Shown one piece after another: positions 1 to 21,104 of a DNA stretch of 64,000 nt. A program made the position numbers and the translations under genes. Location of the stretch: the NCBI GenBank assembly GCA_009838525.1, contig VXRJ01000022.1, forward strand, positions 1-64,000, written 5' to 3'. The notes below the pieces were generated by a model. It did no database searches. It saw nothing but the letters and a program-made list of their open reading frames with translations, and had not been told where the DNA came from. The DNA comes from Acidobacteriota bacterium (lineage in GTDB: Bacteria; Acidobacteriota; Vicinamibacteria; Vicinamibacterales; UBA8438). Position 1 is the stretch's first letter. Every line of letters begins with the position of its first letter.

Positions 1-1960
1 CCGGCGAGAGGGCGCGAAGCGTCCACGCGATCGACAGGAGCGCGGCCAGGATCCCGCCCGCCGCCCCCGCCGCCAGCGTGGCCGGCGACGGGTCCAGGGC
101 GAGGCGCGTCGTGCCGACCGCGTCGATCCAGAGGGTCCGGAACCCAAGCATGATCAGCCAGGCGTAGGCAACCGCCCCGGCGACGCCGATGGCGCTGCCG
201 GCCGCCGACAGCACGAGCGCTTCGCTCAGAAAGAGGCCCCGGATGGCGCGCGGCGTCCAGCCGGTGGCGCGCAGCAGGCCGAGCTCGCGAAGGCGCTGCT
301 CGACCCCGAGGCGGAAGAAGAGGCTGGCGAGCAGCAGGGCCGACACCACCAGGAAGAAGCTGAAGTAGATGAAGTAGAGGCCGAAGTCGGTCGCCCCGGC
401 GGAAGCCTCGAGGGCCAGCGTCCGCGCCGGGTAGACGACGAGGCCAAGCGCAAGCGGGTCGAGTCCGGCCCGGAGCGCGTCCTCCACCTCCGAGGCGGCG
501 GCGTCGAGACCCGCCGCGCCGCCGTCCGCCGGCGTCAGGCGGACCGACGTGACCTGGCCCCAGCGCGATGCCCACAACTGCTGCCCCGCCGACAGCGGGA
601 TGAACGCCTTCGGCGTGGTGCGGTAGTCGTCCCAGTAGGTCTCGTCGGCGGGGCGGATCAATCCGAGATCGACCGGAAAAGGGGGATCCCAGTCGATGAC
701 GTCGGTCGCCTCCGTGATGCCGGGGTAGTCGGGCGTCAGGTCGGGATCCGCGGCGGCGCCCTCGATGGGGACGACGCCGGCGACACGCAGCTCGGCTTCG
801 TGCGTTGTGAGAGCGCCCTCGTCCTCCCAGACGTAGTACTCGATGGAAAGGCTGTCACCGGGGCCTGCGTCGAGATCGTCCGCCGCCCACTGATTGAGGA
901 TCACCGGCGGCGGTTCCGTCGCAGCGCCGTCGGCGGGGGCCGGGGCGTCGAGACGGGCGAGGTCGCGGGCCGTGACTACGGAGTACGGGGTGATGCGGTC
1001 GCCGACCCGCAGCTCGTTCGCGAGGTACGACAGGATCGGCTCCGCCGCGAGACCCCGTGCGGCGGCAACGCTCTCGACCGCCTCGACGGTCGCGTCGGTC
1101 AGCAGGCCGGCGTCCGATTCGACGGCAACCGTTCCCTGTTCCGGGAGGGCGCGGACCCGCAGGCCCAGATCGGCGAGGGTCGCGGTGGCCCGGACCGCGG
1201 CCTCGGCGATCTCCTGGCGCACGGCGTCGCCGCCATCGTCAGCCGCCGCCGTGGCCGAAACGCCTCCCAGGAGCAGGGTATTGACCCGCCCCTCCGTCTC
1301 CAGCTCCTCCTGCAGCCGCGAAAGCGGCACGAATACCGAGCGGGCCAAGCCCTGCGCGGGACGGAACGAGAACTCCCCGAGGTCGGCCGCGGCGAGAACG
1401 CGCGTGACGCCGAGGCGGAGGGTCCGGCCCACGTCGTCGCGGCGGCCGTGGAGCGAACTGATCGGCACCGCCGAGGGCTTCTCGACACGGACGAGGAGCG
1501 CGTCCTCGAGCGCGACCCCCAGCTCGCCGGCGAGCCCGTCGCTGACGAACGCTCCGTTGCGGTCGAGGGCCAGGCCGCCGGGGTCGCGGTCATGGAACGT
1601 CCAGAAGCGGTCGTCTACCCCGTATACCTGGACGCCCGACGCGCGGCGGCCGCTCGCCTGGTGGGTGACGAAGCCCTCGACGGCAACCATCGGAACGACC
1701 GACGGGAAGTGGGCGGCCACGCCGTCCGCCGCAAGCAGCGCGCCGGCGGTCTCTTCACTGACGAAGCGGCCGGTGGTTACGACGCGGTCGATGGCGCCGA
1801 GCCGTTCCAGGGCCAGGGCCCGCAGGCTGGATCGGACCGACGTGCCGACCAGCAGCGCGCCGGCGAGGACGGCGACGGCGACGGCGACGCCGCCCACGAC
1901 GGCCAGATTGGTGCGCCAGTAGTGGCCGAGATTGCGTCGAACGAGCGCGCGGACCACCAT
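1..1960 (-). CDS. MacB/FtsX-type ABC transporter permease (3' end outside window)
   Basis: Inner-membrane permease subunit of an ABC system of the MacB/LolCE type, which moves lipoproteins, peptides or envelope components instead of importing solutes. The ATG at 1960 has a GGAG six bases upstream and opens on a short cytoplasmic stretch, then a hydrophobic first helix rich in Val and Ala. A large periplasmic region of over 400 residues follows. Near the window edge comes the FtsX core, with several membrane helices and the signature RELGLLRATGWTPRAI, the coupling region that contacts the ATPase. The frame is open to base 1, so the C-terminal part (possibly a second FtsX domain) is missing. 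It starts 20 bases after its ATPase gene, so the two are co-transcribed. The family is clear; the substrate is unknown. Confidence 0.85.
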   Translation of the reverse strand, partial: MVVRALVRRNLGHYWRTNLAVVGGVAVAVAVLAGALLVGTSVRSSLRALALERLGAIDRVVTTGRFVSEETAGALLAADGVAAHFPSVVPMVAVEGFVTHQASGRRASGVQVYGVDDRFWTFHDRDPGGLALDRNGAFVSDGLAGELGVALEDALLVRVEKPSAVPISSLHGRRDDVGRTLRLGVTRVLAAADLGEFSFRPAQGLARSVFVPLSRLQEELETEGRVNTLLLGGVSATAAADDGGDAVRQEIAEAAVRATATLADLGLRVRALPEQGTVAVESDAGLLTDATVEAVESVAAARGLAAEPILSYLANELRVGDRITPYSVVTARDLARLDAPAPADGAATEPPPVILNQWAADDLDAGPGDSLSIEYYVWEDEGALTTHEAELRVAGVVPIEGAAADPDLTPDYPGITEATDVIDWDPPFPVDLGLIRPADETYWDDYRTTPKAFIPLSAGQQLWASRWGQVTSVRLTPADGGAAGLDAAASEVEDALRAGLDPLALGLVVYPARTLALEASAGATDFGLYFIYFSFFLVVSALLLASLFFRLGVEQRLRELGLLRATGWTPRAIRGLFLSEALVLSAAGSAIGVAGAVAYAWLIMLGFRTLWIDAVGTTRLALDPSPATLAAGAAGGILAALLSIAWTLRALSP

Positions 1961-8690: not shown

Positions 8691-9695
8691 CTACTGGCCG
8701 CCCCCGGCGGCCTCCCGCTCCTCGAGCCGCGCGCCGGCCAGGATGCCCGGCATCGAGTAGTTCCCCTCGTGGCAGGCGTACTCGAAGATCGGATCCATGG
8801 TCGATTCATGCAGCAACTCGACCGTCCAGGGCTGGGTCCAGGTGTCAGGATCGTTCAGGGTGACCTCCTGGCGCAGGATGCTGGGGCTGATCCGCGTGAA
8901 GCGCTCCACCAGGTGGAGGTTCTCCGACGCGCCGCTGAAGCCGGTCTTCGGTGAGTAGTTCCGCGTCTCGACCACTAGCGTGTCGCCCTCCCAGCGGCCG
9001 CGTGCGTCGCCCGCCCAGAGCCGAACGTCCTCGTCGACATGGGGCCGGTCTTCGATCGGGATCAGCCGGCTGAAATGCCCCATTTCCTGGAAGATCGCCA
9101 CGTGGGTCGGCGTCTGAAGCAACTGGAAGTAGCTGTTGTAGCCCGAACCCATGTTCGGCGCCTGGAAGTGGAGGCAGCGGTCGCCCAGCGTGCGATCTTC
9201 CGGGCCGTCGGACGGATGTTCCGCCCGGTAGGCGCTGCGCTCCGCGGCGCGGGCCTGGGCCGCGTCGGTCATCGCCGGAATGCGGCCGTTCGGCGGATCG
9301 ATGACAAGTGAGGTGCGATTGTCGAGCTGGCGCTCCACCAGCCAGAAGGCGTTGTAGTTCCCGGTGATGACATCGAAGTCCTGGAACTCGGAGTTGCCGA
9401 GGGCCTGCTGAATGAGCCGGTCGCCCAACAGGTCGCCGGCCTGCTCGGCGTCGCGGAACTCGTCGATCCGCTGGGTCAGCTCGGCCAGCTCCTCGTCGGT
9501 CAGCGTCGCCTTCTCACCCAACTGCTCCGGGCGCTCCATGGGCGTCGCGCTGTTGTTCGCCCAGATGCCCGACAGGTCCGGCTGCCCCAATGCGTTGCGA
9601 GGCGCCGTGTAGTTGTCCTGCCCGAACGCCGCCGGCGCCAGCCCCGCCACGACCGCAGCCGACGCCACCCACACGACCAGATTACGGACACTCAT
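8691..9695 (-). CDS. Exported protein of unknown function (acidobacterial family)
   Basis: I recognise the type, not the function. A signal peptide (SVRNLVVWVASAAVVAGLA, cleaved near AFGQ) is followed by NALGQPDLSGIWANNSATPM, an opening found in a large family of secreted proteins expanded in Acidobacteria. Later parts include PPNGRIPAMTDAAQ, RWEGDTLVVETRNYSPKTGF and a C-terminal EYACHEGNYSMPGILAGAR. Those are the usual conserved blocks of this family. The start at 9695 has GGGAGG five bases upstream; the frame remains open upstream to 9737 without a ribosome site. Confidence 0.75.
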   Translation of the reverse strand: MSVRNLVVWVASAAVVAGLAPAAFGQDNYTAPRNALGQPDLSGIWANNSATPMERPEQLGEKATLTDEELAELTQRIDEFRDAEQAGDLLGDRLIQQALGNSEFQDFDVITGNYNAFWLVERQLDNRTSLVIDPPNGRIPAMTDAAQARAAERSAYRAEHPSDGPEDRTLGDRCLHFQAPNMGSGYNSYFQLLQTPTHVAIFQEMGHFSRLIPIEDRPHVDEDVRLWAGDARGRWEGDTLVVETRNYSPKTGFSGASENLHLVERFTRISPSILRQEVTLNDPDTWTQPWTVELLHESTMDPIFEYACHEGNYSMPGILAGARLEEREAAGGGQ

Positions 9696-9887
9696 GAGAT
9701 CCTCCCAAGCCTTGGCGTCACACGCGCGACGCGCCAACGAACCGCCGCCCGAGGCGGCGAACGATCAACGATAGACCCTCCACCGCGCGAGCGCAATCGC
9801 ACGCCCTTTCCGGGACTGCGTCCTTCCGCATGCTAGAGTTTCCGGTTCGAGACGACCCCGACCGCCAGACAAGGAGCAACCACGATC

Positions 9888-11612
9888 GTGCAGGACCACC
9901 TGATTACCCCTCATGGAGGGAAACTCGTCGATCTCTTCGCCACCGATGCCGACGGTGCCGGCCTGAAGGAAGCCTCCCGCGACTGGCCTTCGCACGACCT
10001 CACGGAACGCCAGCTCTGCGACCTCGAGCTGCTGGGCACCGGCGCTTTCTCTCCGTTGACGGGCTTCATGACGCAGCCGGACTACGACCGCGTCTGCGCG
10101 GAGATGCGCCTCGCCGACGGCACGCTCTGGCCGATTCCGATCACGCTCGACGTGTCGGAGGACCTCGCCGGCTCGCTCACGCCCGGGTCCAGGCTCGCCC
10201 TCCGCGATCCGGAAGGGGTGATGCTCGCCGTGGTCGACGTCGAGGACATCTGGCAGCCGGACCGCGCCGCCGAGGCGGTGGCGGTCTTCGGCACCGACAA
10301 CCCCGAGCACCCGGGGGTCGCCCACCTGCTCGACCGGACCCATCCCTGCTACGTCGGCGGGCGCGTCACCGTGGTGCAGCCGGTAACCCACTACGACTAC
10401 CGGCAGATCCGTCACACGCCGGCCGAGCTCCGGGCGCAGTTCGCAAAGCTGGGCTGGACGAAGGTAGTCGCCTTCCAGACACGCAACCCGATGCACCGGG
10501 CGCACCAGGAGCTGACCCTGCGCGCCGCGAAGGAGGTGGGCGCCGACCTGCTGATTCACCCGGTGGTAGGCATGACCAAGCCGGGCGACGTGGATCACTA
10601 CACGCGCGTGCGCTGCTACCAGGCGCTGCTGCACCGCTATCCGTCGAACACGGCGCAGTTGTCCCTGCTGCCCCTCGCGATGCGGATGGGCGGGCCCCGC
10701 GAGGCGGTGTGGCACGCCATCATCCGGAAGAACCACGGCTGCACCCACCTGATCGTCGGCCGCGACCATGCCGGTCCGGGCAGCGATTCCGCCGGCAACC
10801 CGTTCTACGGGCCGTACGACGCGCAGGAGCTGCTCCGTACGCACGAGGCGGAACTGGGCGTCACGATGGTGCCGTTCAAGCTGATGGTCTACGTTCAGGA
10901 CGCCGACACCTACCTCCCGATCGACGAAGTGGAGGAGGGACGGCGCACGCTCAACATTTCCGGCACCGAACTGCGCGAGCGACTCGCCGAGGGACGCGAC
11001 ATCCCGAGCTGGTTCACCTTCCCGGACGTCGCGGAAGAGTTGCGCCGGAGCCATCCGCCGCGCGGCCGGCAGGGCTTCACCGTCTTCTTCACGGGACTAT
11101 CGGGTTCCGGCAAGTCGACCATCGCGAACGCACTCCTGGTGAAGTTCCTGGAGTTCGGCGGGCGGCCGGTAACGCTGCTCGACGGCGACCTGGTCCGGAA
11201 GAACCTGTCGAGCGAGCTGGGCTTCTCGAAGGAGCACCGCGACATCAACATCCGGCGCATCGGCTACGTCGCCTCCGAGATCACGAAGAACGGGGGCATC
11301 GCCGTCTGCGCCCCGATCGCCCCCTACGATGCGGTGCGGAAGGACGTCCGGCGGATGATCGAACCGCTTGGGGGCTTCGCCCTCGTCCATGTCGACACGC
11401 CGCTCGAGGTGTGCGAGCAGCGCGACCGCAAGGGCCTCTACGCCAAGGCGCGGGCCGGCATCATCAAGGAGTTCACCGGGATCTCCGATCCCTACGAGGC
11501 GCCCGCGGACGCCGAGGTGACCATCGACACGACCAGGCTGACCCCGGACGAGGCGGCCCAGCGCATCATCCTGCACTTGGAACGTCAGGGCTATATCAGC
11601 GCCGAGGAGTAG
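9888..11612 (+). CDS. sat-cysC: Bifunctional ATP sulfurylase / APS kinase
   Basis: Two enzymes of sulfate activation in one 574-residue chain. Residues about 1-385 are the homomeric (Sat-type) ATP sulfurylase with QTRNPMHRAH and GRDHAGPGSD nucleotide-binding motifs, making APS from sulfate and ATP. Residues about 395-574 are APS kinase with P-loop GLSGSGKST and the DGDLVRKNLSSELGFSKEHR block, making PAPS. Both active sites look intact. The start is GTG with AAGGAG 12 bases upstream. It heads the sulfur region but is separated from the rest by the AAA/RloB insertion. No CysDN-type sulfurylase is present. Confidence 0.95.
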   Translation: MQDHLITPHGGKLVDLFATDADGAGLKEASRDWPSHDLTERQLCDLELLGTGAFSPLTGFMTQPDYDRVCAEMRLADGTLWPIPITLDVSEDLAGSLTPGSRLALRDPEGVMLAVVDVEDIWQPDRAAEAVAVFGTDNPEHPGVAHLLDRTHPCYVGGRVTVVQPVTHYDYRQIRHTPAELRAQFAKLGWTKVVAFQTRNPMHRAHQELTLRAAKEVGADLLIHPVVGMTKPGDVDHYTRVRCYQALLHRYPSNTAQLSLLPLAMRMGGPREAVWHAIIRKNHGCTHLIVGRDHAGPGSDSAGNPFYGPYDAQELLRTHEAELGVTMVPFKLMVYVQDADTYLPIDEVEEGRRTLNISGTELRERLAEGRDIPSWFTFPDVAEELRRSHPPRGRQGFTVFFTGLSGSGKSTIANALLVKFLEFGGRPVTLLDGDLVRKNLSSELGFSKEHRDINIRRIGYVASEITKNGGIAVCAPIAPYDAVRKDVRRMIEPLGGFALVHVDTPLEVCEQRDRKGLYAKARAGIIKEFTGISDPYEAPADAEVTIDTTRLTPDEAAQRIILHLERQGYISAEE

Positions 11613-11647
11613 CGCGGACTCGTCGCGCGCTGGCCAGTGCCCTCGGG

Positions 11648-11712
11648 CGGTGCGCGGGCCGGTGCGCCAGCCTCCAGGCCGGCAGTGGTCTTCTCGGCGA
11701 CTATGGCGCTCT
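11648..11712 (+). repeat. Left direct repeat flanking the AAA/RloB cassette
   Basis: About 65 bases that match 13918-13982 at nearly nine positions in ten in the same orientation. The copy includes the genome-wide palindrome core (CCTCCAGGCCGGCA) and then a unique tail, TTCTCGGCGACTATGG, which at the right copy contains the start codon of the DUF4202 gene. The left copy therefore looks like a duplicated piece of the DUF4202 upstream region, left when the cassette arrived. Confidence 0.75.
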
Positions 11713-11797
11713 CGCGAGGTGGAGAACCGCACGGCGTTCGACGGGGAGCTTGCCAACTCCGGCGAGTGTGGAGCAGTTACTACGGTGTGGGGAAACG

Positions 11798-12430
11798 TCA
11801 CGGGACGGGCGCGGTGTCGAGTCCGTACCGGAGTCGATCTACCAGCCGCCACACGTCCGTGCTGGGGTTTGTTCGACGCGGAGAACCGTTGCCTTCGTGA
11901 CGCGCGTCGAGTTCCCGTGCACGGTGCTTCGCCGTTTCGAAGTCGTCGATGAGGGTCATCCACGCGGTTTCGGGAATCCTCTTGCCACTCGTCAGGCCCA
12001 GCTCATGAGAACGTTGCTGGATATCACGACGGCTGATCCAGGCGGTCTGGTGACGAGCGTGCAGCACGAGCCAGAGTTCAATGCACGGGTTGGAGACTGC
12101 GACTTCGATACCGCTTTGCCCGGCATTGTGCACTGCCTGCGGAACGTTCGGGTGCTGGTCGACGTCGAACACGCACCAGATCTCGTCGAAGGCGGGGTCT
12201 CTTCGTCTTGGGCGTCCAGCTCGCGCGTGCTCTTGCGCCCGCCGGACGAGCGCATCGGGAGTCATGCCGCGGTCTGTAATCTCAACGAAGACCTTGTGTC
12301 GGTTGAGACGAGCCCACTCGGTGAGATAGCGGGGCTCCGTTACCTCACCCTCGGTGAGGATACGAAAGACGCGACGCGTTTCGCGCTTCACGTGGCGCCG
12401 ACGCGGGTACCGGCCGGAAGGTCTTGTCAT
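11798..12430 (-). CDS. RloB/AbiLii-like TOPRIM-type protein
   Basis: A 210-residue protein of the RloB family, paired with an AAA ATPase in AbiL-type abortive infection modules. TOPRIM-like acidic motifs are visible: RILTEGEVTEPRYL near residue 25 and WCVFDVDQHPN near 85, consistent with a metal-dependent nuclease core. NPCIELWLVLH is the third conserved block. Its ATG overlaps the stop of the ATPase gene (ATGA), indicating translational coupling. An open frame continues upstream to 12682, but that part is antisense to the ATPase. Its predicted role is as nuclease effector of the defence pair. Confidence 0.8.
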   Translation of the reverse strand: MTRPSGRYPRRRHVKRETRRVFRILTEGEVTEPRYLTEWARLNRHKVFVEITDRGMTPDALVRRAQEHARAGRPRRRDPAFDEIWCVFDVDQHPNVPQAVHNAGQSGIEVAVSNPCIELWLVLHARHQTAWISRRDIQQRSHELGLTSGKRIPETAWMTLIDDFETAKHRARELDARHEGNGSPRRTNPSTDVWRLVDRLRYGLDTAPVP

Positions 12431-13803
12431 GAACCGTCCGCGTCGGCAAGCAGTTGGAACTCTGCCGGGTCCAGGACGGGAACGGCTCCGTAGCGCCCCT
12501 GAAGGTAGCGTTTTCCGAGCGCTTCGTCTCGCTTCGGCTGAAACTCCGCCAGCGAATAGAGCGTCGTTCCGCCGTCGACGTTCTTCTCGGTGAGCCATAT
12601 CTGGTCTCGGCCCAGGGTGCGCTGGCTGCTGTCGCCGAGGATTGTCGGATCGTGGGCGTTGAAGACAAGTTGCGCGCACCACGGGTTGGTCTTGGGGTCG
12701 TGGAAGAGCCGGATGAACCGTCGTACGAGATGGGGGTGCAAGCTCGAGTCGAGCTCGTCTAACAGAAGCACGGATCCTCTACGTATTGTCTCTAGCAGCG
12801 GTCCGAGCAGGCTAACCCATGCCAGTGTTCCTTGAGATTCGTGCTCCGGATCAACGGAAACAGCGCCCTCCGTTCCCGCGTGGCTCAGACGCAGGAGGTT
12901 GCTGCGCAAGAAGTACTCATCCTGCGCACCAGCCGGCTCTTCTTCGAGTCCATCGAGACCGCGAAGCGCTCGCTGCCACTTTTCGGCGGCTTCCGCGTCG
13001 ATAACGATTCGCTCGATGTCCTTGATGCCCAGGTCGGCGGCTTGCAGCAGGGGGACAATCGCTCCGCGCGCCTTAGGATGCGGGAGGAGCTCGGCTGTCT
13101 TGGCTATGCCCGCGCCCCGATTGTCGGGCGCCATTAGCCGAAGATTGTCGCGAAACCAGTCGAATAGGGGGCCGATCAGGGTGGTGACGCTTGAACGGGC
13201 GTTTACCGGGCCATCCGCGACAGCGCCGACGACTGACAATAGCAGCGCGTTCCTGCGCACGAGGCGTGCAAGCACGCGGCCGGACGAGCGAAAGGCGGGA
13301 CCGAAGCTCGGCGTCCGATCATCGCGTTCTCTACGAAAGACCAGCGCCTGGCGCCCTTTCGGATAGTAGTAGGCGTACTCGTCGCGAACAGACTGGTCGT
13401 CGATTTCGAAGCCGTACTGCCAGCGCACTCCGTGGAGAATCAGGTCGATCTCGAACCGGGATGGCTGTTCGGCGCCGTGGTCGTGAAGGAGAAACGGCTG
13501 GCGAGGGAGCTTGGTTTCCTGATCCCCTTTGCGGAACGAACTCAGCACGACCGCGCGCATGTCCGCCATCGCCCGCAGGAACGCCGACTTTCCCGATGCG
13601 TTCGCTCCGAAGAGGCCTGCCGTGGGCAGCACGTTTGCTGGCCCCTGGATGCCGGCGACCTGCAAGCCCCTGACAACTTCCGCATCCGACAGCCTGGTGC
13701 CGATCAGCGACAGTGTTGCCTCTTCCCAGTAGGAACGTACATTCCGAATGGAGAAGGACAGCAGTGCGTTCGTTGGCGGAGGCGTGCCTACAAGGGTGTA
13801 CAC
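12427..13803 (-). CDS. AAA family ATPase, RloA/AbiLi-like
   Basis: A 458-residue ABC/SMC-type ATPase of the kind that accompanies RloB. It opens with NALLSFSIRNVRSYWEEATL, then Walker A GANASGKS near residue 52. Walker B is SVLLLDELDSSLHP with the D-loop, followed by VFNAHDPTIL, and the C-terminal KNVDGGTTLYSLAEF and LQGRYGAVPVLDP blocks are typical of the family. The start is inferred as the GTG at 13803; the frame is open far upstream but that part runs antisense to DUF4202. A perfect palindrome lies directly in front. Base composition is less GC-extreme than its neighbours, fitting transfer. Likely the sensor and regulator of an antiphage pair. Confidence 0.82.
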   Translation of the reverse strand: MYTLVGTPPPTNALLSFSIRNVRSYWEEATLSLIGTRLSDAEVVRGLQVAGIQGPANVLPTAGLFGANASGKSAFLRAMADMRAVVLSSFRKGDQETKLPRQPFLLHDHGAEQPSRFEIDLILHGVRWQYGFEIDDQSVRDEYAYYYPKGRQALVFRRERDDRTPSFGPAFRSSGRVLARLVRRNALLLSVVGAVADGPVNARSSVTTLIGPLFDWFRDNLRLMAPDNRGAGIAKTAELLPHPKARGAIVPLLQAADLGIKDIERIVIDAEAAEKWQRALRGLDGLEEEPAGAQDEYFLRSNLLRLSHAGTEGAVSVDPEHESQGTLAWVSLLGPLLETIRRGSVLLLDELDSSLHPHLVRRFIRLFHDPKTNPWCAQLVFNAHDPTILGDSSQRTLGRDQIWLTEKNVDGGTTLYSLAEFQPKRDEALGKRYLQGRYGAVPVLDPAEFQLLADADGS

Positions 13804-13809
13804 AGGCCC

Positions 13810-13834
13810 ATTATCGCGGAAAATCCGCGATAAT
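13810..13834. promoter_or_regulatory. Perfect 10-bp inverted repeat before the AAA ATPase
   Basis: ATTATCGCGG and CCGCGATAAT separated by AAAAT, centred 19 bases upstream of the GTG start. On the minus strand a TATACT -10-like hexamer (13842-13847) lies just upstream of it. The palindrome would therefore fall at or after the transcription start, either as an operator or as a leader hairpin covering the ribosome-binding region. No other copy was noticed in the window. Confidence 0.6.
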
Positions 13835-13917
13835 TGCAAAGTATAGCGCCGTTCTAGCTGGACATGGTGCGTTGAGGAATGACCTGTGAGTGACCGCCGG
13901 CCTCCAGCGCCCCGGCC

Positions 13918-13982
13918 GGTGCGCAAGCTGGTGCGCCGGCCTCCAGGTCGGCACTGGTATTCTCGGCGACTATGGTGCTTCT
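13918..13982 (+). repeat. Right direct repeat flanking the AAA/RloB cassette
   Basis: Partner of the copy at 11648. It carries the palindromic core CCTCCAGGTCGGCA and the tail TTCTCGGCGACTATGG, which includes the ATG of the DUF4202 gene. A further degenerate palindrome unit lies just before it (13897-13917). It is the original junction if the ATPase/RloB segment was inserted in front of DUF4202. Confidence 0.75.
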
Positions 13983-14577
13983 CTCCGACACCTCCACCCG
14001 CTTCCGGGACGCGATTCTCGGCTTCGACGCCGCCAACGCGGAAGATCCCAACACGGAGGTGGACGGCGGCGTTCCGCAGCCCAAGGAGCTCGTCTACGCC
14101 AATCGCATGACGGCCGCGCTCCACCGGTTCGCCCCCGATGCTCCCGAGACCGTCCGGCTCGCCGCCCGTTGCCAGCACATCCGGCGCTGGACCATCCCCC
14201 GCGGCGACTACCCGGAGGGCCGCGCCGGCTACCGGCAGTGGCGCACCGACCTGGCCGCCTTTCACGCTGATACGGCGGCCGAGATCCTCCGTGGCGTCGG
14301 CTACGACGAGCGGACGATCGCGCGGGTCCAGGCCCTCGTCCGTAAGGACCGCCTCAAGGCCGACCCCGACGTCCAGCTTCTCGAGGACATCATCTGCCAC
14401 GTCTTCCTCACCCACTACCTCGCGGACTTCGCCGCGAAGCACGACGACGACAAGGTGGCCGACATCCTGAAGAAGACCTGGCGCAAGATGTCGGACGACG
14501 GACGCGCCGCGGTCACGTCCCTCGAACTGCCGGAGGCTGTCCGTTCCCTCGTGGCCCGGATCGCCGAGGTCAGCTGA
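13972..14577 (+). CDS. DUF4202 domain-containing protein
   Basis: A 201-residue alpha-helical protein of the DUF4202 family. Diagnostic blocks are FDAANAEDPNTE at the N-terminus, QPKELVYANRM, the AARCQHIRRWTIPRGDYP motif, RVQALVRKDRLKADPDVQ and EDIICHVFLTHYLADFA. The conserved His and Asp residues give it an HD-like look, but no activity is established. Such genes often sit with assimilatory sulfate reduction genes, as here. It ends 14 bases before the promoter of the Cys leader and so belongs to the upstream unit, originally probably with sat-cysC. Confidence 0.88.
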   Translation: MVLLSDTSTRFRDAILGFDAANAEDPNTEVDGGVPQPKELVYANRMTAALHRFAPDAPETVRLAARCQHIRRWTIPRGDYPEGRAGYRQWRTDLAAFHADTAAEILRGVGYDERTIARVQALVRKDRLKADPDVQLLEDIICHVFLTHYLADFAAKHDDDKVADILKKTWRKMSDDGRAAVTSLELPEAVRSLVARIAEVS

Positions 14578-14591
14578 CGTTCCGCCGCCAC

Positions 14592-14622
14592 TTGACTCCC
14601 GAGGTGCAGATGGGGCTACAAT
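14592..14622 (+). promoter_or_regulatory. Promoter of the cysteine-controlled operon
   Basis: A -35 element TTGACT (14592-14597) and a -10 element TACAAT (14617-14622) are spaced by 19 bases. The expected transcription start near 14629 leaves only about seven bases before the leader ATG at 14636, with no Shine-Dalgarno sequence. The leader would be translated as an almost leaderless message. Confidence 0.65.
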
Positions 14623-14635
14623 TCCCCTCACGCGC

Positions 14636-14749
14636 ATGAACGTTCCGATCATCACCCCCGGCTGCGCCTGTTGTTGCTGCTGTTGTATGGGGCCCCACGG
14701 GGCTCCCCTGGGCGATGGTCGTACGCGTTCGGATGCATCGATGGCGTAA
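14636..14749 (+). CDS. Poly-cysteine leader peptide of the sulfur operon
   Basis: A 37-codon ORF. Codons 10-17 read Cys-Ala-Cys-Cys-Cys-Cys-Cys-Cys (14663-14686), using both TGC and TGT: seven cysteines in eight codons in a genome region where Cys is rare. It ends with TAA at 14747. It lies between a promoter and a rho-independent terminator and upstream of cysteine-biosynthesis genes, the classic arrangement of an attenuation leader such as TrpL or HisL. The peptide itself probably has no function; the rate of translation of its Cys codons is the signal. Leaderless poly-Cys ORFs that attenuate sulfur operons are known from mycobacteria. Confidence 0.85.
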   Translation: MNVPIITPGCACCCCCCMGPHGAPLGDGRTRSDASMA

Positions 14750-14820
14750 GCGAAAAGCAGACATCAGACGACGCGCGACAGACTGAAAGCCCGGGGGGCA
14801 ACGCCCTTCGGGCTTTTTTT
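14689..14820 (+). promoter_or_regulatory. Cysteine-responsive transcription attenuator
   Basis: Four pairing segments can be read directly. Segment 1 (689-696) pairs with segment 2 (699-708) as a GC-only hairpin right after the Cys codons. Segment 2, as 702-713, can instead pair with segment 3 (789-799): all of segment 3 pairs, with one G-U pair and one bulged base. Segment 3 is also the 5' arm of the terminator hairpin with segment 4 (803-816). A ribosome stalled on Cys codons would cover segment 1, freeing segment 2 to take segment 3 and prevent termination. Normal translation restores 1:2 and so the terminator. (Numbers are last three digits, after 14000.). Confidence 0.8.
14786..14820 (+). 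terminator. Rho-independent terminator of the attenuator
   Basis: Outer stem AAAGCCCG (14786-14793) with CGGGCTTT (14809-14816), inner stem GGGC/GCCC around AAC, and a seven-T run (14814-14820). It lies after the leader ORF and about 100 bases before the permease start, so it ends transcription early unless the antiterminator forms. Confidence 0.88.
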
Positions 14821-14922
14821 GTGGCCGCGTCGAACGATAGAACGGATGAACGGAACGCAGATGGTGAACGGGACGGCCAGGGCGACAAACGGCAGCGCGC
14901 CTCGCGGTGCGAGGGTTTCCGC

Positions 14923-15717
14923 GTGACCGAGATCGCGCCCGCCCTGATCGGCTTCGTGGTCGGCCTGCTGGTCGGAGCCACGTCCACCGGCGGCGGCGCG
15001 CTGCTGACGCCGGCGCTGATCCTGATCGCGCGCGTGCCGGCGCCGATCGCGATCGGCTCCGACGTGCTCATCGCGAGTGTCATGAAGCTCTTCGGGGGCG
15101 GCTTCTACGCGCTGCGCCGCGAGGTGCACTGGCCGACGGTGGGACGCCTGGCCCTCGGATCGATTCCGGGCGCCGTCGTGGGGCTCGCCATTCTCGGTGC
15201 GCTGCCGGTGGCGCAAATCGACTACTGGCTGACGCGCGCCCTCGGCGTCGTGCTGGTGCTCGCGGGCGGTGCGCTCTGGCTGCGCGTCCATTTCACCGGA
15301 AAGTTGCGGTCCGCGACACAGCCGGCGACGCGCGTGACGGTCGCGATCGGCTTCGTTGTCGGCGTGCTGGTCGCGACCACGAGCGTCGGGAGCGGTTCGC
15401 TTCTGCTCTGTGCGCTCGTCCTCGCTTATCCCCTCGGCGCGCGGACGACGGTCGGGACCGACCTGGTCCATGCGCTCTTTCTGTCGGCGGCGGCGACGGT
15501 CGGTCATGCCGCGGCGGGACGCGTCGATCTGGCGCTGGCGGGGCTGGTGCTTGCGGGCGCCATCCCCGGCGTCCTGCTTGGGGCGCGGATGTCGGTCGCG
15601 GTTCCGGAGCGCGTCCTGCGCGCCGGTCTCGCAACCGTGCTGCTGTTGCTCGGCATTCATCTGGCGACGTTCGGTGGAACGAACGACCTTTGGCTGGCGT
15701 ACGGAGGCATTTGGTGA
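14923..15717 (+). CDS. TauE/SafE-family membrane permease, probable sulfur-anion transporter
   Basis: A 264-residue polytopic membrane protein with about eight helices and the two-fold repeat of the TauE/SafE family: GLLVGATSTGGGALLTPALI in the first half and GVLVATTSVGSGSLLLCALV in the second. Family members move sulfite, sulfonates or sulfate; TauE-like CysZ of corynebacteria serves sulfate uptake within a cys cluster. As first gene behind the Cys attenuator it is most likely the sulfate importer, since no CysTWA or SulP is present. The GTG start has GAGGG seven bases upstream; the frame extends back over the terminator but that part is not coding. Confidence 0.85.
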   Translation: MTEIAPALIGFVVGLLVGATSTGGGALLTPALILIARVPAPIAIGSDVLIASVMKLFGGGFYALRREVHWPTVGRLALGSIPGAVVGLAILGALPVAQIDYWLTRALGVVLVLAGGALWLRVHFTGKLRSATQPATRVTVAIGFVVGVLVATTSVGSGSLLLCALVLAYPLGARTTVGTDLVHALFLSAAATVGHAAAGRVDLALAGLVLAGAIPGVLLGARMSVAVPERVLRAGLATVLLLLGIHLATFGGTNDLWLAYGGIW

Positions 15718-16478
15718 GCACGACGGTTCTGGAACGGGCGGAACGGCTTGACAACGGGTACGCGGAAGAAAACGACCTGGCGACGGTCGCCGCGATGCTG
15801 GAGGGAGTGGCCCCGGAGGACGTGCTGCGCTGGGCGGTGGACGAGTATGCCGACCGCCTGACGTTCGCCACCGGGTTCGGTCCGGAGGGTTGCGTGCTGA
15901 TCGATCTGATCGGACGCCATGCGCTGCCGATCGACATCTTCACGCTGGACACCGGCCTGATCTTCGACGAGACGCGTGATCTGTGGCAACGACTCGAGGC
16001 GCGCTACGGGCTGACGATCCGCGGCGTGAAGCCGGCGCTGGCGGTGGACGAACAGAACGCCGTGTACGGCGATCGGCTCTGGGAACGCTCGCCCGACCGC
16101 TGCTGCGCCATGCGGAAGGTGATCCCGCTCCGCGAGGAACTGGCGAACGTCGATGCCTGGATCGCCGCCATCCGCCGCGATCAGACGCCGCAGCGCGCAA
16201 GCGCGCGGACGGTCGAGTGGGACGGCAAGTTCGAGATCGCGAAGGTGAATCCGCTCGTCACGTGGACGTCGAAGGATGTCTGGCGTTACCTCGTGAAGCA
16301 CGACGTGCCCTACAACCCGCTGCACGACCGGGGCTTCCCCAGCATCGGCTGCTGGCCGTGCACGACCTGGGTCGCGCCGGGCGAGGACGAACGGTCGGGA
16401 CGTTGGCGGGGCACCGCGAAGACCGAGTGCGGCCTGCACGCGGCACCGGAACCGACCACCCCGCCGGCGGGCCCGTGA
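15714..16478 (+). CDS. cysH: Assimilatory APS reductase with [4Fe-4S] cluster
   Basis: A 254-residue thioredoxin-dependent reductase of adenylyl sulfate to sulfite. Substrate-binding motifs are FATGFGPEGCVLIDLI and FTLDTGLIFDETRDL. It has both Cys pairs of the iron-sulfur type, RCCAMRK and GCWPC, plus the C-terminal catalytic TECGLH. This identifies an APS-reducing enzyme instead of the cluster-free PAPS reductase, although some cluster-bearing enzymes take both. The GTG start overlaps the TGA of the permease gene, with GGAGG six bases upstream. It is translationally coupled. Confidence 0.93.
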   Translation: MSTTVLERAERLDNGYAEENDLATVAAMLEGVAPEDVLRWAVDEYADRLTFATGFGPEGCVLIDLIGRHALPIDIFTLDTGLIFDETRDLWQRLEARYGLTIRGVKPALAVDEQNAVYGDRLWERSPDRCCAMRKVIPLREELANVDAWIAAIRRDQTPQRASARTVEWDGKFEIAKVNPLVTWTSKDVWRYLVKHDVPYNPLHDRGFPSIGCWPCTTWVAPGEDERSGRWRGTAKTECGLHAAPEPTTPPAGP

Positions 16479-16497
16479 CGCAGGATTCGAACAACCG

Positions 16498-17982
16498 ATG
16501 CAGCTCTTTCCCGCGTTCCTGAAGCTGAACGGCCGGCGCGTGCTGGTCGTCGGCGGCGGCGGCGTTGCCGCCTCCAAGCTTCGGGGGCTGCTCGACGCGG
16601 GAGCCAGGGTGACGGTGGTCGCACCGGCCATCGTCGATGCGATCGCCTCGATCCCCGACATCGCGGTGATCCGTCGCCGGTTCGAGCCGTCGGACCTCGA
16701 CGGCGTCTGGCTGGTGGTCGCCGCCGCGACATCCGAAGTGAACCGCGAAGTGGCGCGCGCCGCCGGCGACCGCCGGCTCTTCGTCAACGCGGTCGACGAT
16801 CCGCCGAACGCCAGTCTCTATCTCGGCGGCGTCGTGCGCCGCGCCGGCGCGACGATGGCAATTTCGACCGACGGAAGGGCGCCGGCGATCGCGGGGCTGC
16901 TCCGCGAAGGACTCGACGCGGTCCTCCCCGAGACGGATCTCGAGCGCTGGCTCGCCGAGTCGGATCGACTGCGCGCCCGGTGGCGGCGGGACGGCACGCC
17001 GATGGAGGCGCGGCGGCCCGAGCTTCTGGAAGCGCTCATCGCGCTGTACGGACGGGACGGCCAGGACGGGCGACCGGAGGCCGGCATGGATGCCGGCGGA
17101 CCCGGGAGCGCCCCGCCGGCGCGGACGCCGGCGCACCCTGGCGGCGGCTTCGTCTCGCTGATCGGCGCCGGACCGGGCGATCCCGATCTCCTCACGGTAC
17201 GCGGGGCGCAGTGTCTCGCGGAAGCGGATCTCGTGCTGTACGACGGGCTGGTACCCGAATCGACGGTCGGTCTCGCCACCCGCGCTCAGCACTTCAGCGT
17301 CGCCAAGCGCGCCGGGCGGCCGGCGGTGACGCAGGAGACCATCCACCGTCTGATGATTCGGGGCGCGCGGCGCGGCAAGCGGGTAGTCCGGCTGAAGAAC
17401 GGCGACCCGTTCCTGCTGGGGCGCGGCGGCGAAGAAGCGCTGGCCCTGGCGTCGGCGGGCGTGCCTTTCGAGGTGATCCCGGGCGTGACGTCGGCCGTGG
17501 CGGCGCCGGGCCTTGCCGGGATTCCGGTCACGCATCGCGGCATGACGACGGGATTCACCGTCGTGTCCGGACATGCGCCGGAGGCCTATGAGCCGATCCT
17601 GCGCGGCGTGGCGCCGGAATCGATGACCCTCGTGGTGTTGATGGGACTGCGGAACCGCGAGCGGATTGCGCGGACGCTTCTCGATGTCGGGTGGCGGCCC
17701 GACACGCCGGCTGCCGTCGTCCTGGGGGCGGCAACCCCCGGCATGGCGACCTGGCGCGGTCGGTTGGACGCGCTGGCCGACGAGCGGTTCGAACCGGCGG
17801 GCGAGGCAGGCGGGGCGAGCCCGGAACGCGGTAGCGAAACGCCGGCGCCGGGGACGATTGTGGTCGGCGAGGTGGCGCGGCTGCGGCTCCTGATCGGAGC
17901 GGACGCGGAGCGTCGCGGCGACGGGGAATTGGATGCCGAAGGGGCGGCCGGAAGACGCCGCGCCGGGGGGCAGGTGCGATGA
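16498..17982 (+). CDS. cysG: Multifunctional siroheme synthase
   Basis: Makes siroheme for the sulfite reductase encoded next. Residues 1-190 are the precorrin-2 dehydrogenase/ferrochelatase part with RRVLVVGGGGVAASKLRGLL and FVNAVDDPPNASLY. Residues about 220-470 are uroporphyrinogen-III methyltransferase with VSLIGAGPGDPDLLTVRG, YDGLV and RLKNGDPFLLGRGGEE. The two domains are joined by a Gly/Pro/Ala-rich linker (about 195-219) that is encoded by a copy of the GC-rich palindromic repeat. A further low-complexity stretch lies near the C-terminus. It overlaps the sulfite reductase start by four bases (ATGA). Confidence 0.93.
   Translation: MQLFPAFLKLNGRRVLVVGGGGVAASKLRGLLDAGARVTVVAPAIVDAIASIPDIAVIRRRFEPSDLDGVWLVVAAATSEVNREVARAAGDRRLFVNAVDDPPNASLYLGGVVRRAGATMAISTDGRAPAIAGLLREGLDAVLPETDLERWLAESDRLRARWRRDGTPMEARRPELLEALIALYGRDGQDGRPEAGMDAGGPGSAPPARTPAHPGGGFVSLIGAGPGDPDLLTVRGAQCLAEADLVLYDGLVPESTVGLATRAQHFSVAKRAGRPAVTQETIHRLMIRGARRGKRVVRLKNGDPFLLGRGGEEALALASAGVPFEVIPGVTSAVAAPGLAGIPVTHRGMTTGFTVVSGHAPEAYEPILRGVAPESMTLVVLMGLRNRERIARTLLDVGWRPDTPAAVVLGAATPGMATWRGRLDALADERFEPAGEAGGASPERGSETPAPGTIVVGEVARLRLLIGADAERRGDGELDAEGAAGRRRAGGQVR
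17079..17142 (+). repeat. Palindromic repeat inserted in frame within cysG
   Basis: The DNA carries GGAGGCCGGCATGGATGCCGG and GCGGACGCCGGCGCACC, the same units as the intergenic repeat. It is read through in frame and encodes the interdomain linker of CysG (roughly EAGMDAGG, then ARTPAHPGG). This is the only copy seen inside a gene in the window. Confidence 0.75.
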
Positions 17983-20330
17983 ACTGGAAGACAGAACTGG
18001 CGGAACGGATTCCGGCGGATCTCGGCGCGGAGATCGATCTGTTCGAGAGTCAGATCGAGCTTCGGCGCCAGGGAAAGATCGACGAGAAGGTCTTCGCCGA
18101 GACGCGGCTGCGCCGGGGCGTTTACGGGCAACGCTACGACAACGGACAGCGGAACGACGGAACCGGCCCGAAGCCGCTGCAGTATCCGGCGGACAAGCTG
18201 ACCAAGGGCCCCGACACCGTCTGGGACGCGCCCGGCATGCAGCGGATCAAGATCCCGATGGGACTGCTCGACCCCGAGCAGATGCGTACGCTCGCCGAGC
18301 TTGCGGACGAGTACAGCGACGGAGTCTGCCATGTGACGACACGGCAGGACATCCAGCTCCACTTCGTCCATATCGACGACACCCCCGACATGATGCGCCG
18401 CCTCGCGGCGGTCGGCATCACGACCCGCGAGGCATGCGGGAACACCGTCCGCAACGTCACCGCCTGCCCGCTCGCCGGTGTGTGCCACGGCGAGACGTTC
18501 GACGTCACGCCCTACGCGGTGGCGTGCATGCAATTCCTGCTCGGCCACCCCGACACGCAGGACTTCGGCCGGAAGTTCAAGGTGGCTTTCTCCGGATGCC
18601 GCGACGAGGCGTGCGGCCTGGTGGCGATGCACGACCTGGGGCTGATCGCGGTCACGAAGACGGAGAACGGCGTCGAGCGTCGCGGCTTCGAGACTTACGT
18701 CGGCGGCGGGCTCGGCGCGGTGCCGTACCAGGCGAAGCTGTTCGATCCGTTCCTGCCGGTCGAGGAGTTGCTGCCGACGGCGCAGGCGATCGCGCGCGTC
18801 TTCGCCCGCATGGGCGAGAAGAAGAACCGCGCCCGGGCGCGGATCAAGTTCCTCGTCGCCCAGCTTGGAATCGAGGAGTTCCGGCGGCTCGTGCTGGAAG
18901 AACGGGCGGGGCTGCCGGAGGATCCGCGCTGGACGGCGTACGTCGCGGACGCGGCGGCCGGCACTCCGGACGCGGCGGCCAGCACTCCCGATGCGGCGGG
19001 ACCGTCCGCCGACGCGACTCGGGGCCCATCCGGCGTCCCGGTGTCGCTGCGCAACGGAAACGGCAGCGCCGACGCCGCCCGGCAGCGACTGGACGGATGG
19101 GCGCGGACCAACGTCTACCGCCAGCGCCAGGCGGGCTACGCCGTCGTCACCGTCACGCTGCCCCTGGGCGATCTCACGTCCGCCCAGATGCGTGGCCTGG
19201 CCACCCTCGTCGAGCGCTACGCGAACGGCGAGGCGCGGGCGACGGCCGAGCAGAACATCGTCCTGCGGTGGGTGCGGGAAGCGGATCTCGGAGGGCTGTA
19301 CGACGGGCTGCGGGCAATCCGGCTGGACAGCCCGGGCGCGGGGACGATCACCGACATTACCGCGTGCCCCGGAACCGACACGTGCAAGCTGGGCATAGCC
19401 TCTTCACGCGGCCTGGCGGCGGAGCTGGCCAATCACCTCGGGGGGCAGGACGAGACGACCGACCCGGCCGTCCGCGGTCTCCGGATCAAGACCAGCGGCT
19501 GCTTCAACTCGTGCGGCCAGCATCACATCGCCGACCTCGGCTTCTACGGCGTAAGCCGGAACGTCCGCGGCTACGCCGTCCCGCACTTCCAGGTGGTGCT
19601 GGGCGGGCAGTGGACGGAGAACGCCGGGTCCTACGGACTGGCCTCGGGCGCGATTCCGTCGAAGCGCATCCCGGAGGTGATCGACAGAATCACCAGCCGG
19701 TTCGTCGCCGAGCGGCGGGAGAACGAGACGTTCCAGGACTACACGCGGCGGATCGGCAAACGTGAGCTGCGCGAGATGTTCGCCGACCTCGCAACCGTCC
19801 CGCCGCACGACGACGACCCGTCCTTCTATTCCGACTGGGGCGATCCGCGCGAGTTCACGTTGGGTGACATGGGTGTCGGCGAATGCGCCGGCGAAGTGGT
19901 CACGCTCACCGAGTTCGACCTCGCGGCGGCCGAGGCGCAGATCTTCGAAGCGCAGTTGAAGCTGGAGGAGGGCTCGCCGGCCGAGGCCGACGCACTCGCC
20001 TATCGGGCCATGCTGCTGGGCGCCCGCGGGCTGATCAAGACCGAGTTCATCGACATCGGGGACGACGCCGACACGGTGGTGCGCGAGTTCAGGACCCGCT
20101 TCTTCGACACCCAGGTCTTCTTCGACAAGTACGCCGGGGGGAAGTTCGCGATGTACCTCTTCCGCCGGCATGGCTCCGGCCCCCGCGAGACCGGAGAAAC
20201 CGTGCACCACCTGATTGAAGAGGCGCAGCTCTTTCTCGAAGCGTGCCATGCCTGCGCCGCCCGACTGGCCGCACGGCCGGCCGGCGGCGTCGGCGCGGCG
20301 CCCGCCGCCGCGGGGTCGCCGACCGCCTGA
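17979..20330 (+). CDS. sir: Ferredoxin-type sulfite (or nitrite) reductase, siroheme/[4Fe-4S]
   Basis: A 783-residue reductase taking sulfite to sulfide with six electrons. The C-terminal half holds the cofactor site TACPGTDTCKLG and KTSGCFNSCGQHH (Cys-x5-Cys, Cys-x3-Cys). The N-terminal half repeats the fold and carries its own cysteines in TACPLAGVCHGE and FSGCRDEACG. A low-complexity linker with GTPDAA and STPDAA repeats separates the halves (about 325-355). The last 180 residues form a helical extension not found in short CysI proteins. Neighbours (cysH, cysG) favour sulfite over nitrite as substrate. Confidence 0.88.
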   Translation: MNWKTELAERIPADLGAEIDLFESQIELRRQGKIDEKVFAETRLRRGVYGQRYDNGQRNDGTGPKPLQYPADKLTKGPDTVWDAPGMQRIKIPMGLLDPEQMRTLAELADEYSDGVCHVTTRQDIQLHFVHIDDTPDMMRRLAAVGITTREACGNTVRNVTACPLAGVCHGETFDVTPYAVACMQFLLGHPDTQDFGRKFKVAFSGCRDEACGLVAMHDLGLIAVTKTENGVERRGFETYVGGGLGAVPYQAKLFDPFLPVEELLPTAQAIARVFARMGEKKNRARARIKFLVAQLGIEEFRRLVLEERAGLPEDPRWTAYVADAAAGTPDAAASTPDAAGPSADATRGPSGVPVSLRNGNGSADAARQRLDGWARTNVYRQRQAGYAVVTVTLPLGDLTSAQMRGLATLVERYANGEARATAEQNIVLRWVREADLGGLYDGLRAIRLDSPGAGTITDITACPGTDTCKLGIASSRGLAAELANHLGGQDETTDPAVRGLRIKTSGCFNSCGQHHIADLGFYGVSRNVRGYAVPHFQVVLGGQWTENAGSYGLASGAIPSKRIPEVIDRITSRFVAERRENETFQDYTRRIGKRELREMFADLATVPPHDDDPSFYSDWGDPREFTLGDMGVGECAGEVVTLTEFDLAAAEAQIFEAQLKLEEGSPAEADALAYRAMLLGARGLIKTEFIDIGDDADTVVREFRTRFFDTQVFFDKYAGGKFAMYLFRRHGSGPRETGETVHHLIEEAQLFLEACHACAARLAARPAGGVGAAPAAAGSPTA

Positions 20331-20344
20331 GGGCGGCAAGTCCC

Positions 20345-20947
20345 ATGGCGCAGGCCGCCCACGTGGCTCACGCAATCGACGTCGACGCCATCGAGCGCTT
20401 CAGCCTCAAGCTCTTCATCGCGGAGGGCCGTGCGGTCCGTCCGCGTGAGATCATCGATATCTTCCACGAGTGGATCCGCGAACGGGCGGTCCCCGGCCTG
20501 CTGATCGATGTCGCCGACTACGGACACCTGCCCGAGTCGCCGAACGTCCTGCTCGTAGCCCACGAGGCGAACTACATCTTCGACTGCCACCGGCGCGCCG
20601 GCTTCGCCTACACGATCAAGCGGAAGACTCCCGGCTCGTTTGCCGACCGCATCGCCGACGCCGCGAGCACGCTCTTCTTCGCCGCCCGGCGCCTGCAGCA
20701 GGACACGGCGGACGACCCGGACGGAGCAATACCGTTCCAGGTCGATCGAATCGAGCTTGTCGTCAACGACCAGTTGCACGCGCCGAAGACCGCCGGCGTG
20801 GAGCGGGCCCTGCAAGGAGCCGTCGAACAGGCGGCACGGCTCATCTTCGGCGAGACGCGTGTGGAATCGGCCCCCCTCGCGGACGGCGGCCGCACCGGCG
20901 TCACGCTTCGCATCCCGAACGCGCCGGCCCTCGAGACCCTCGTCTAG
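20345..20947 (+). CDS. Conserved protein of unknown function in the cys operon
   Basis: Not recognised. The 200 residues begin AIDVDAIERFSLKLFIAEGR, then IIDIFHEWIRERAVPGLLID and DYGHLPESPNVLLVAHEANY. A central IKRKTPGSFADRIADAASTL and a C-terminal part with an AAA-RLI helix and short strands follow. There is no signal peptide or membrane helix. It follows the sulfite reductase by 14 bases with a GAGGG-type ribosome site, so it is the last gene of the Cys-controlled operon and probably serves sulfite reduction or sulfide use. Confidence 0.7.
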   Translation: MAQAAHVAHAIDVDAIERFSLKLFIAEGRAVRPREIIDIFHEWIRERAVPGLLIDVADYGHLPESPNVLLVAHEANYIFDCHRRAGFAYTIKRKTPGSFADRIADAASTLFFAARRLQQDTADDPDGAIPFQVDRIELVVNDQLHAPKTAGVERALQGAVEQAARLIFGETRVESAPLADGGRTGVTLRIPNAPALETLV

Positions 20948-20956
20948 CTGGAACCG

Positions 20957-21022
20957 GGGTTCGCCGGCCTCCAGGCCGGCAAGAGAACAGTCAATGCCGG
21001 CGTGGACGCCGGCGCACCTGGC
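20957..21022. repeat. GC-rich palindromic repeat
   Basis: GCCGGCCTCCAGGCCGGC, a short spacer, then GCCGGCGTGGACGCCGGCGCACC: the same two-hairpin design as at 6405. It lies between the last gene of the sulfur operon and the LysR promoter, where it may act as a transcription boundary. Confidence 0.85.
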
Positions 21023-21044
21023 GCGAAAGGCGGCACAGCGCCTA

Positions 21045-21104
21045 TTAGCATTAAAATAACTAATGCTGATAGCGCTTGCTATTAGCCAATGCCGCGTCTA
21101 GAAT
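21045..21104 (+). promoter_or_regulatory. LysR-gene promoter with AT-rich inverted repeat
   Basis: TTAGCATTA (21045-21053) and TAATGCTGA (21061-21069) form an inverted repeat around seven bases with one mismatch, a LysR-type T-N11-A box. Downstream are a -35 TTGCTA (21076-21081) and a -10 TAGAAT (21099-21104) with a 17-base spacer. CTATTAGC occurs twice here. The arrangement suggests autoregulation of the LysR gene. Confidence 0.65.

Follow-up and report, generated by a model that had tools for sequence, protein, structure and literature searches.

Leader ORF and sulfur genes at the locus

In the window (the whole analysed stretch of 64,000 nt), a short ORF with a run of cysteine (Cys) codons precedes an operon of sulfur genes, which comprises a permease gene, cysH, a cysG-like gene and a gene for a sulfite reductase-type hemoprotein (Table 1). 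The Pfam and NCBIfam assignments agree with the gene order given in an earlier annotation made from the DNA letters alone (the sequence-only reading). A LysR regulator (Pfam, NCBIfam) is encoded further downstream of the cys genes, and an ATP sulfurylase-APS kinase gene (sat-cysC) is located at 9888-11612. Between sat-cysC and the cys operon lies an AbiL-type defence pair (AbiLi-/AbiLii-like, PADLOC; 11798-13800, minus strand), and a DUF4202 gene (13972-14577, plus strand) ends just 5' of the leader promoter. The last ORF of the operon region (20243-20947, plus strand) matched no Pfam or NCBIfam family.

Table 1. Coordinates of the leader, putative attenuator elements and operon genes in the window
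Feature	Position	Strand	Description and evidence
-35 box TTGACT	14592-14597	+	Sequence; most relatives have a conserved TTGAC in this position
-10 box TACAAT	14617-14622	+	19-bp spacer to -35 box; sequence and scoring script
Leader ORF	14636-14749	+	37 codons, ATG start, TAA stop, no Shine-Dalgarno; equivalent ORFs in relatives
Regulatory Cys codons	14663-14686	+	TGC GCC, then six consecutive TGT/TGC
Segment 1	14679-14695	+	Last Cys codons and GGGGCCC; predicted to pair with segment 2 (folding; 1:2 pairing probability 0.69)
Segment 2, putative antiterminator 5' strand, GGCTCCCCTGGGCGATGGTC	14701-14720	+	Starts 14 nt past last Cys codon; duplex with segment 3 -23.7 kcal/mol, z -2.4
Segment 3, ACTGAAAGCCCGGGGGGC	14782-14799	+	Terminator 5' arm and putative antiterminator 3' strand; folding
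Intrinsic terminator (segments 3:4), seven-T tract	~14785-14820	+	Terminator scan; -24.6 kcal/mol; segment 4 is the 3' arm with the T tract
TauE/SafE-family permease, first gene of the putatively controlled operon	14923-15717	+	Pfam PF01925, 1.8e-40
cysH, PAPS/APS reductase	15717-16478	+	PF01507; NF002537 above its cut-off
cysG-like siroheme synthase/methylase	16498-17982	+	PF13241 and PF00590
Sulfite reductase-type hemoprotein (NirA/Sir family)	17979-20330	+	PF01077/PF03460; Pfam and NCBIfam

The leader peptide begins MNVPIITPGCACCCCCCMGPHG, and the full reading of the ORF is MNVPIITPGCACCCCCCMGPHGAPLGDGRTRSDASMA. Its seven Cys residues occupy codon 10 and codons 12-17, which confirms the coordinates and codons of the 37-codon ORF with seven Cys among codons 10-17 in the sequence-only reading. 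The promoter was recognised by eye and with a scoring script; its 19-bp spacer kept it out of the results of a generic promoter scan. From this spacer and the positions of the boxes, transcription is predicted to start at about 14629-14630, approximately 6 nt before the ATG, which itself lies 13 nt past the -10 box. Such a 5' UTR would leave no room for a ribosome site, in line with the near-leaderless start without ribosome site that had been proposed. The ORF had also been placed in a gap between a promoter and a terminator; both are present, with the terminator lying outside the interval 14592-14749 to which that description referred.

The Cys density had been judged too high for chance, and randomisation bears this out: 200 dinucleotide-preserving shuffles of the window contained no run of at least six Cys codons. 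The full motif (a Cys run of at least three codons, in-frame start, stop and terminator) occurred 0.005 times per window in 200 such shuffles. A search of the window's own genome with a TGYx4 pattern gave 39 matches, and among the 30 loci scanned only the window locus combined an in-frame start and stop with a terminator. It was likewise the only convincing match when the same genome was searched for the promoter plus Cys-run pattern with no criterion for the neighbouring gene. A search of positions 9000-21100 with Rfam covariance models (E up to 1) matched no known riboswitch or leader family.

Conservation of the leader across Acidobacteriota

A search for the TauE permease in 60 relatives revealed the same leader directly 5' of the permease gene in ten members of the same order (permease 60-71% identical) and in one relative from another family of the order (41% identical). 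These loci display TTGAC (in most), a -10 box and an ATG or GTG 6-19 nt later, followed by 3-5 consecutive Cys codons, where the window has six. The stop lies 54-78 nt past the beginning of the run, ahead of a G+C-rich terminator that has a T tract. Outside the Cys run, two alignments showed the leader peptides to be only partly alike, and beyond one family the leaders do not align well.

Searches for CysH covered the class (193 genomes), a sample of the phylum (396 genomes) and named GTDB genomes. The loci were scanned with a script that required three or more consecutive Cys codons in frame with a start codon, a stop no more than 150 nt away, and a terminator. Of 137 loci from all phyla sampled, 46 have the leader unit 5' of cysH, on the same strand and at a distance of up to 4 kb; the 91 negative loci take in actinobacteria, other phyla and truncated contigs, and many acidobacteriotal cysH loci had no such leader by the criteria of the script. 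Elsewhere the script detected four matches in 2.66 Mb of strand. Three of the four precede sulfite reductase genes, so the background is about one. CysH proteins of the relatives in the phylum sample are 55-82% identical to those of named Acidobacteriaceae, which assigns these relatives to the phylum Acidobacteriota. A looser scan added several cases and led to a working set of 61 acidobacteriotal leaders; 14 more were found later. The unit that recurs in these 61 + 14 loci consists of a promoter, an ATG or GTG usually 6-9 nt past the -10 box, 3-7 consecutive Cys codons, a stop and a terminator. The remaining leader sequence varies freely, and TGT and TGC replace each other synonymously.

No leader of this type was found in the 1.5 kb upstream of each of 60 Chloroflexota and Latescibacterota/Gemmatimonadota-like loci, and 20 actinobacterial loci revealed no Cys-run leader near cysH. 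A weak Anaerolineae match (L135) was not reproduced and was rejected as a leader.

The first gene after the leader differs by lineage (TauE, cysH, cysD, cysG/SUMT, sulfite reductase, YeiH-like), but almost always belongs to sulfur assimilation; the leader thus follows function and not one particular gene. The cysS gene was not among the genes identified downstream of the leaders. A search of 60 whole genomes of relatives for the promoter plus Cys-run pattern, independent of the neighbouring gene, detected ten further leaders. Six of them stand before cysG/SUMT and sulfite reductase genes, and one each before a gene for a YeiH-like putative sulfate exporter, a RimK-like ATP-grasp gene, a gene of unknown family and a tRNA-Cys gene. 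The check proposed with the sequence-only reading, conservation of start, Cys run and stop before sulfur genes within otherwise variable sequence, thus gave a positive result in dozens of relatives, with the terminator kept as well; loss of the Cys run or the frame in related genomes, named beforehand as the outcome that would speak against the idea, was not what we observed. At the level of sequence, these comparisons establish the promoter, start, Cys run, frame, stop and terminator, the pairings between segments described below, and the link to sulfur genes.

Some loci displayed further peculiarities. Poly-Cys leaders are also found before sulfite reductase genes that lie apart from the cysH of the same locus (L200, minus strand, ~2343; L171, minus strand, ~4041). 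At L013:1486-3084 a single ORF (533 aa) encodes a TauE permease fused to a second PAPS_reduct-domain protein, which looks like CysD, and at L096:6669-7724 (minus strand) a single ORF combines a DUF2061 membrane domain with CysH.

Probable translation of the leader and the putative attenuator

Leaderless genes can be recognised by a signal resembling a -10 box about 12 bp 5' of the start codon (PMC3160421). In 34 of 58 leaders, 6-9 nt separate the -10 box from the start codon, and since the transcript would begin at this position, a leaderless start is predicted. Even a four-base Shine-Dalgarno-like match was present in only 2 of 38 leaders. Most relatives therefore look truly leaderless, while the window copy, with its predicted UTR of approximately 6 nt, is near-leaderless, the term used in the sequence-only reading.

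The Cys run could in principle be a by-product of an untranslated RNA element, for example a repeated UGU/UGC-binding site. The Cys codons do pair with segment 2 in the predicted folds, so the run has a role in the RNA as well. However, where the promoter is clear (33 leaders), a start codon (ATG or GTG) 5-10 nt past the -10 box occurs in the Cys frame 27 times, versus 0 and 1 times in the other two frames. Interrupted runs keep the frame (e.g. CAC, CVC or CRC before the run), and an in-frame stop precedes the terminator in all modelled leaders. These observations argue for a translated ORF and make a purely structural origin of the run very improbable. The codon choice is distinctive: the 61 leaders contain 176 TGT and 58 TGC codons, versus 3 TGT and 33 TGC in the genes of the window. 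The leaders thus use a codon that is rare in the window genes, the reason being either slow decoding or the structure of the RNA.

Metal binding and redox sensing are possible functions of Cys-rich peptides, and the ORF might accordingly encode a small protein with a function of its own that lies by chance before the terminator of an upstream unit. A redox effect on the passage of ribosomes has been speculated for mycobacteria (PMC4633059). Against such a protein, the peptide is not conserved across clades outside the Cys run, the length of the run ranges from 3 to 7, and leaders with a terminator are found before tRNA-Cys genes too. We regard this explanation as having hardly any likelihood.

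The codons for the end product, the intrinsic terminator and a predicted alternative antiterminator that includes the terminator 5' arm are among the features by which ribosome-mediated attenuators of the trp/his leader type are recognised, and the leader contains these three. Modelling placed a terminator after the leader stop in 60 of 61 leaders, and its covariation among 12 relatives exceeded that of all 500 shuffles. In 54 leaders the terminator 5' arm pairs with a segment 2 (mean z -1.5 versus shuffles) that begins, in the median, 14 nt past the last Cys codon; this segment can instead pair with the Cys run and the bases adjoining it downstream (1:2). Across 25 sequence clusters, the 2:3 pairing of a leader's own segments was better than that with foreign segments (p 0.003; reverse test 3e-5). 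In the 12 closest relatives the putative antiterminator helix was 79.7% paired, versus 31-43% when it was slid, and no covariation beyond shuffles was found in this group. The sequence evidence for the antiterminator is thus stronger between clades than within close relatives.

The ORF could also act by translation alone, by delivery of ribosomes or by coupling to the next gene, with the hairpin being incidental. Leaderless poly-Cys ORFs of mycobacteria have been described as regulating the translation of the downstream gene (review PMC9031893), and a study from 2005 detected no conserved terminator in these bacteria (PMC1262725). In the window, however, the leader stop lies approximately 170 nt 5' of the permease start with the intrinsic terminator in between, and the near-universal terminator, its covariation in the group tested and the complementarity of segments 2 and 3 that is kept across clades all speak against translation alone. 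We consider this alternative quite unlikely, if somewhat less so than the two above.

The poly-Cys leader ORF, leaderless in general and near-leaderless here, very probably serves as a sensor of Cys-tRNA that regulates the sulfur operon through ribosome-mediated attenuation of transcription. From the arrangement of the elements we infer translation, stalling, antitermination, and the direction and size of regulation, as follows. A ribosome would load at the extreme 5' end of the message. With ample Cys-tRNA it would pass the Cys codons and reach the stop, upon which segments 1 and 2 would pair, the terminator (3:4) would form and transcription would end before the permease gene. With scarce Cys-tRNA it would stall on the Cys run and cover segment 1. 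Segment 2, with its start approximately 14 nt beyond the run, would lie just clear of the stalled ribosome and be free to pair with segment 3, no terminator would form, and the sulfate/sulfite assimilation genes would be transcribed. Because the stalled ribosome covers segment 1 and frees segment 2, read-through is predicted when Cys-tRNA is short. Two properties of the folds constrain this model. In most leaders the terminator fold has the greater stability at equilibrium, which means that antitermination has to be a kinetic effect. In many leaders the presence of a ribosome at the stop would not be enough to disrupt the 2:3 pairing, and the model therefore relies on 1:2 re-forming behind the ribosome.

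Known cysteine leaders and tRNA-Cys loci

It is established that mycobacteria have leaderless short poly-Cys ORFs with a response to cysteine (Canestrari et al. 2020, as relayed in PMC9031893, PMC9094748 and PMC13236596), with first hints in PMC1262725 and in Shell et al. 2015 (PMC4633059). As far as these accounts relay the work, the mycobacterial ORFs share with the leaders described here the leaderless start, the Cys run, the position before cysteine or sulfur genes and a proposed response to Cys-tRNA. They belong to another phylum, and a sequence relation is not apparent. By the criterion applied in mycobacteria, a start at or next to the predicted 5' end with no Shine-Dalgarno, the acidobacteriotal leaders are comparable, with the spacing from the -10 box given above; in contrast to the mycobacterial ORFs, for which no conserved terminator was found (PMC1262725), they display a complete intrinsic terminator and a putative antiterminator. 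Candidate cys leader peptides of Propionibacterium and Bifidobacterium (PMC1262725) are also short ORFs with Cys runs before cys or cbs genes, but these are Actinobacteria and parts of the attenuator are missing.

Cys attenuators have been described outside Actinobacteria before. uORFC-8-2, an attenuator of cysS in Rhodobacterales, has Cys codons in a short ORF, an intrinsic terminator and proposed ribosome-mediated attenuation; it differs in having two tandem Cys codons, in its position before cysS and in its occurrence in Alphaproteobacteria, and the available part of its description does not call it leaderless (PMC8632094). The leaderless trpL of Sinorhizobium meliloti (PMC10117765) likewise joins a leaderless leader ORF to a transcription attenuator, but with Trp codons, before the trp operon and in Alphaproteobacteria. 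As far as the literature searched shows, leaderless poly-Cys leaders appear to be new for the phylum Acidobacteriota, and so does the union of a leaderless start with a complete intrinsic-terminator attenuator for cysteine.

Among attenuators predicted in Acidobacteria, almost none has an assigned function (PMC2965389). The poly-Cys leader would give one of them a signal (Cys-tRNA), a mechanism and a regulon, in a phylum that is among the commonest in soil. The joining of leaderless translation and terminator attenuation for cysteine far from mycobacteria would also make it testable whether such sensors are convergent or of great age.

The leaders extend to tRNA genes. In one genome (G036; L323:744-1713, plus strand), a leader, a terminator, a tRNA-Cys(GCA) gene and a peroxiredoxin gene follow each other in this order. 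A search with this tRNA revealed the order leader, terminator, tRNA-Cys(GCA) again in two genomes of another family, G145 (L337) and G153 (L338), where the leader peptides differ and a RimK-like ATP-grasp gene comes next. In the former, on the minus strand, the leader lies at ~1332 and the tRNA at 1501-1576 (reverse-complement coordinates), and the ATP-grasp gene was recognised only from the sequence after the tRNA; in the latter the unit spans L338:1250-2618 (plus strand). A fourth similar tRNA-Cys (L339) had no leader. In the part of the literature that was searched, no leader-peptide attenuator before a tRNA gene was found.

On balance, we lean towards the view that the leaderless poly-Cys attenuators form a phylum-wide regulon of Acidobacteriota that includes, besides sulfate assimilation, the tRNA-Cys gene itself. 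If so, this gene would be induced by a lack of its own charged tRNA, along with the peroxiredoxin or the RimK-like ATP-grasp ligase. These cases suggest that a tRNA gene may be controlled by stalling on the codons which that tRNA reads. The RimK-like ATP-grasp ligase is encoded repeatedly after a Cys leader, with or without tRNA-Cys (L319:1140-2384, L338:1599-2618), and may use or make a cysteine compound.
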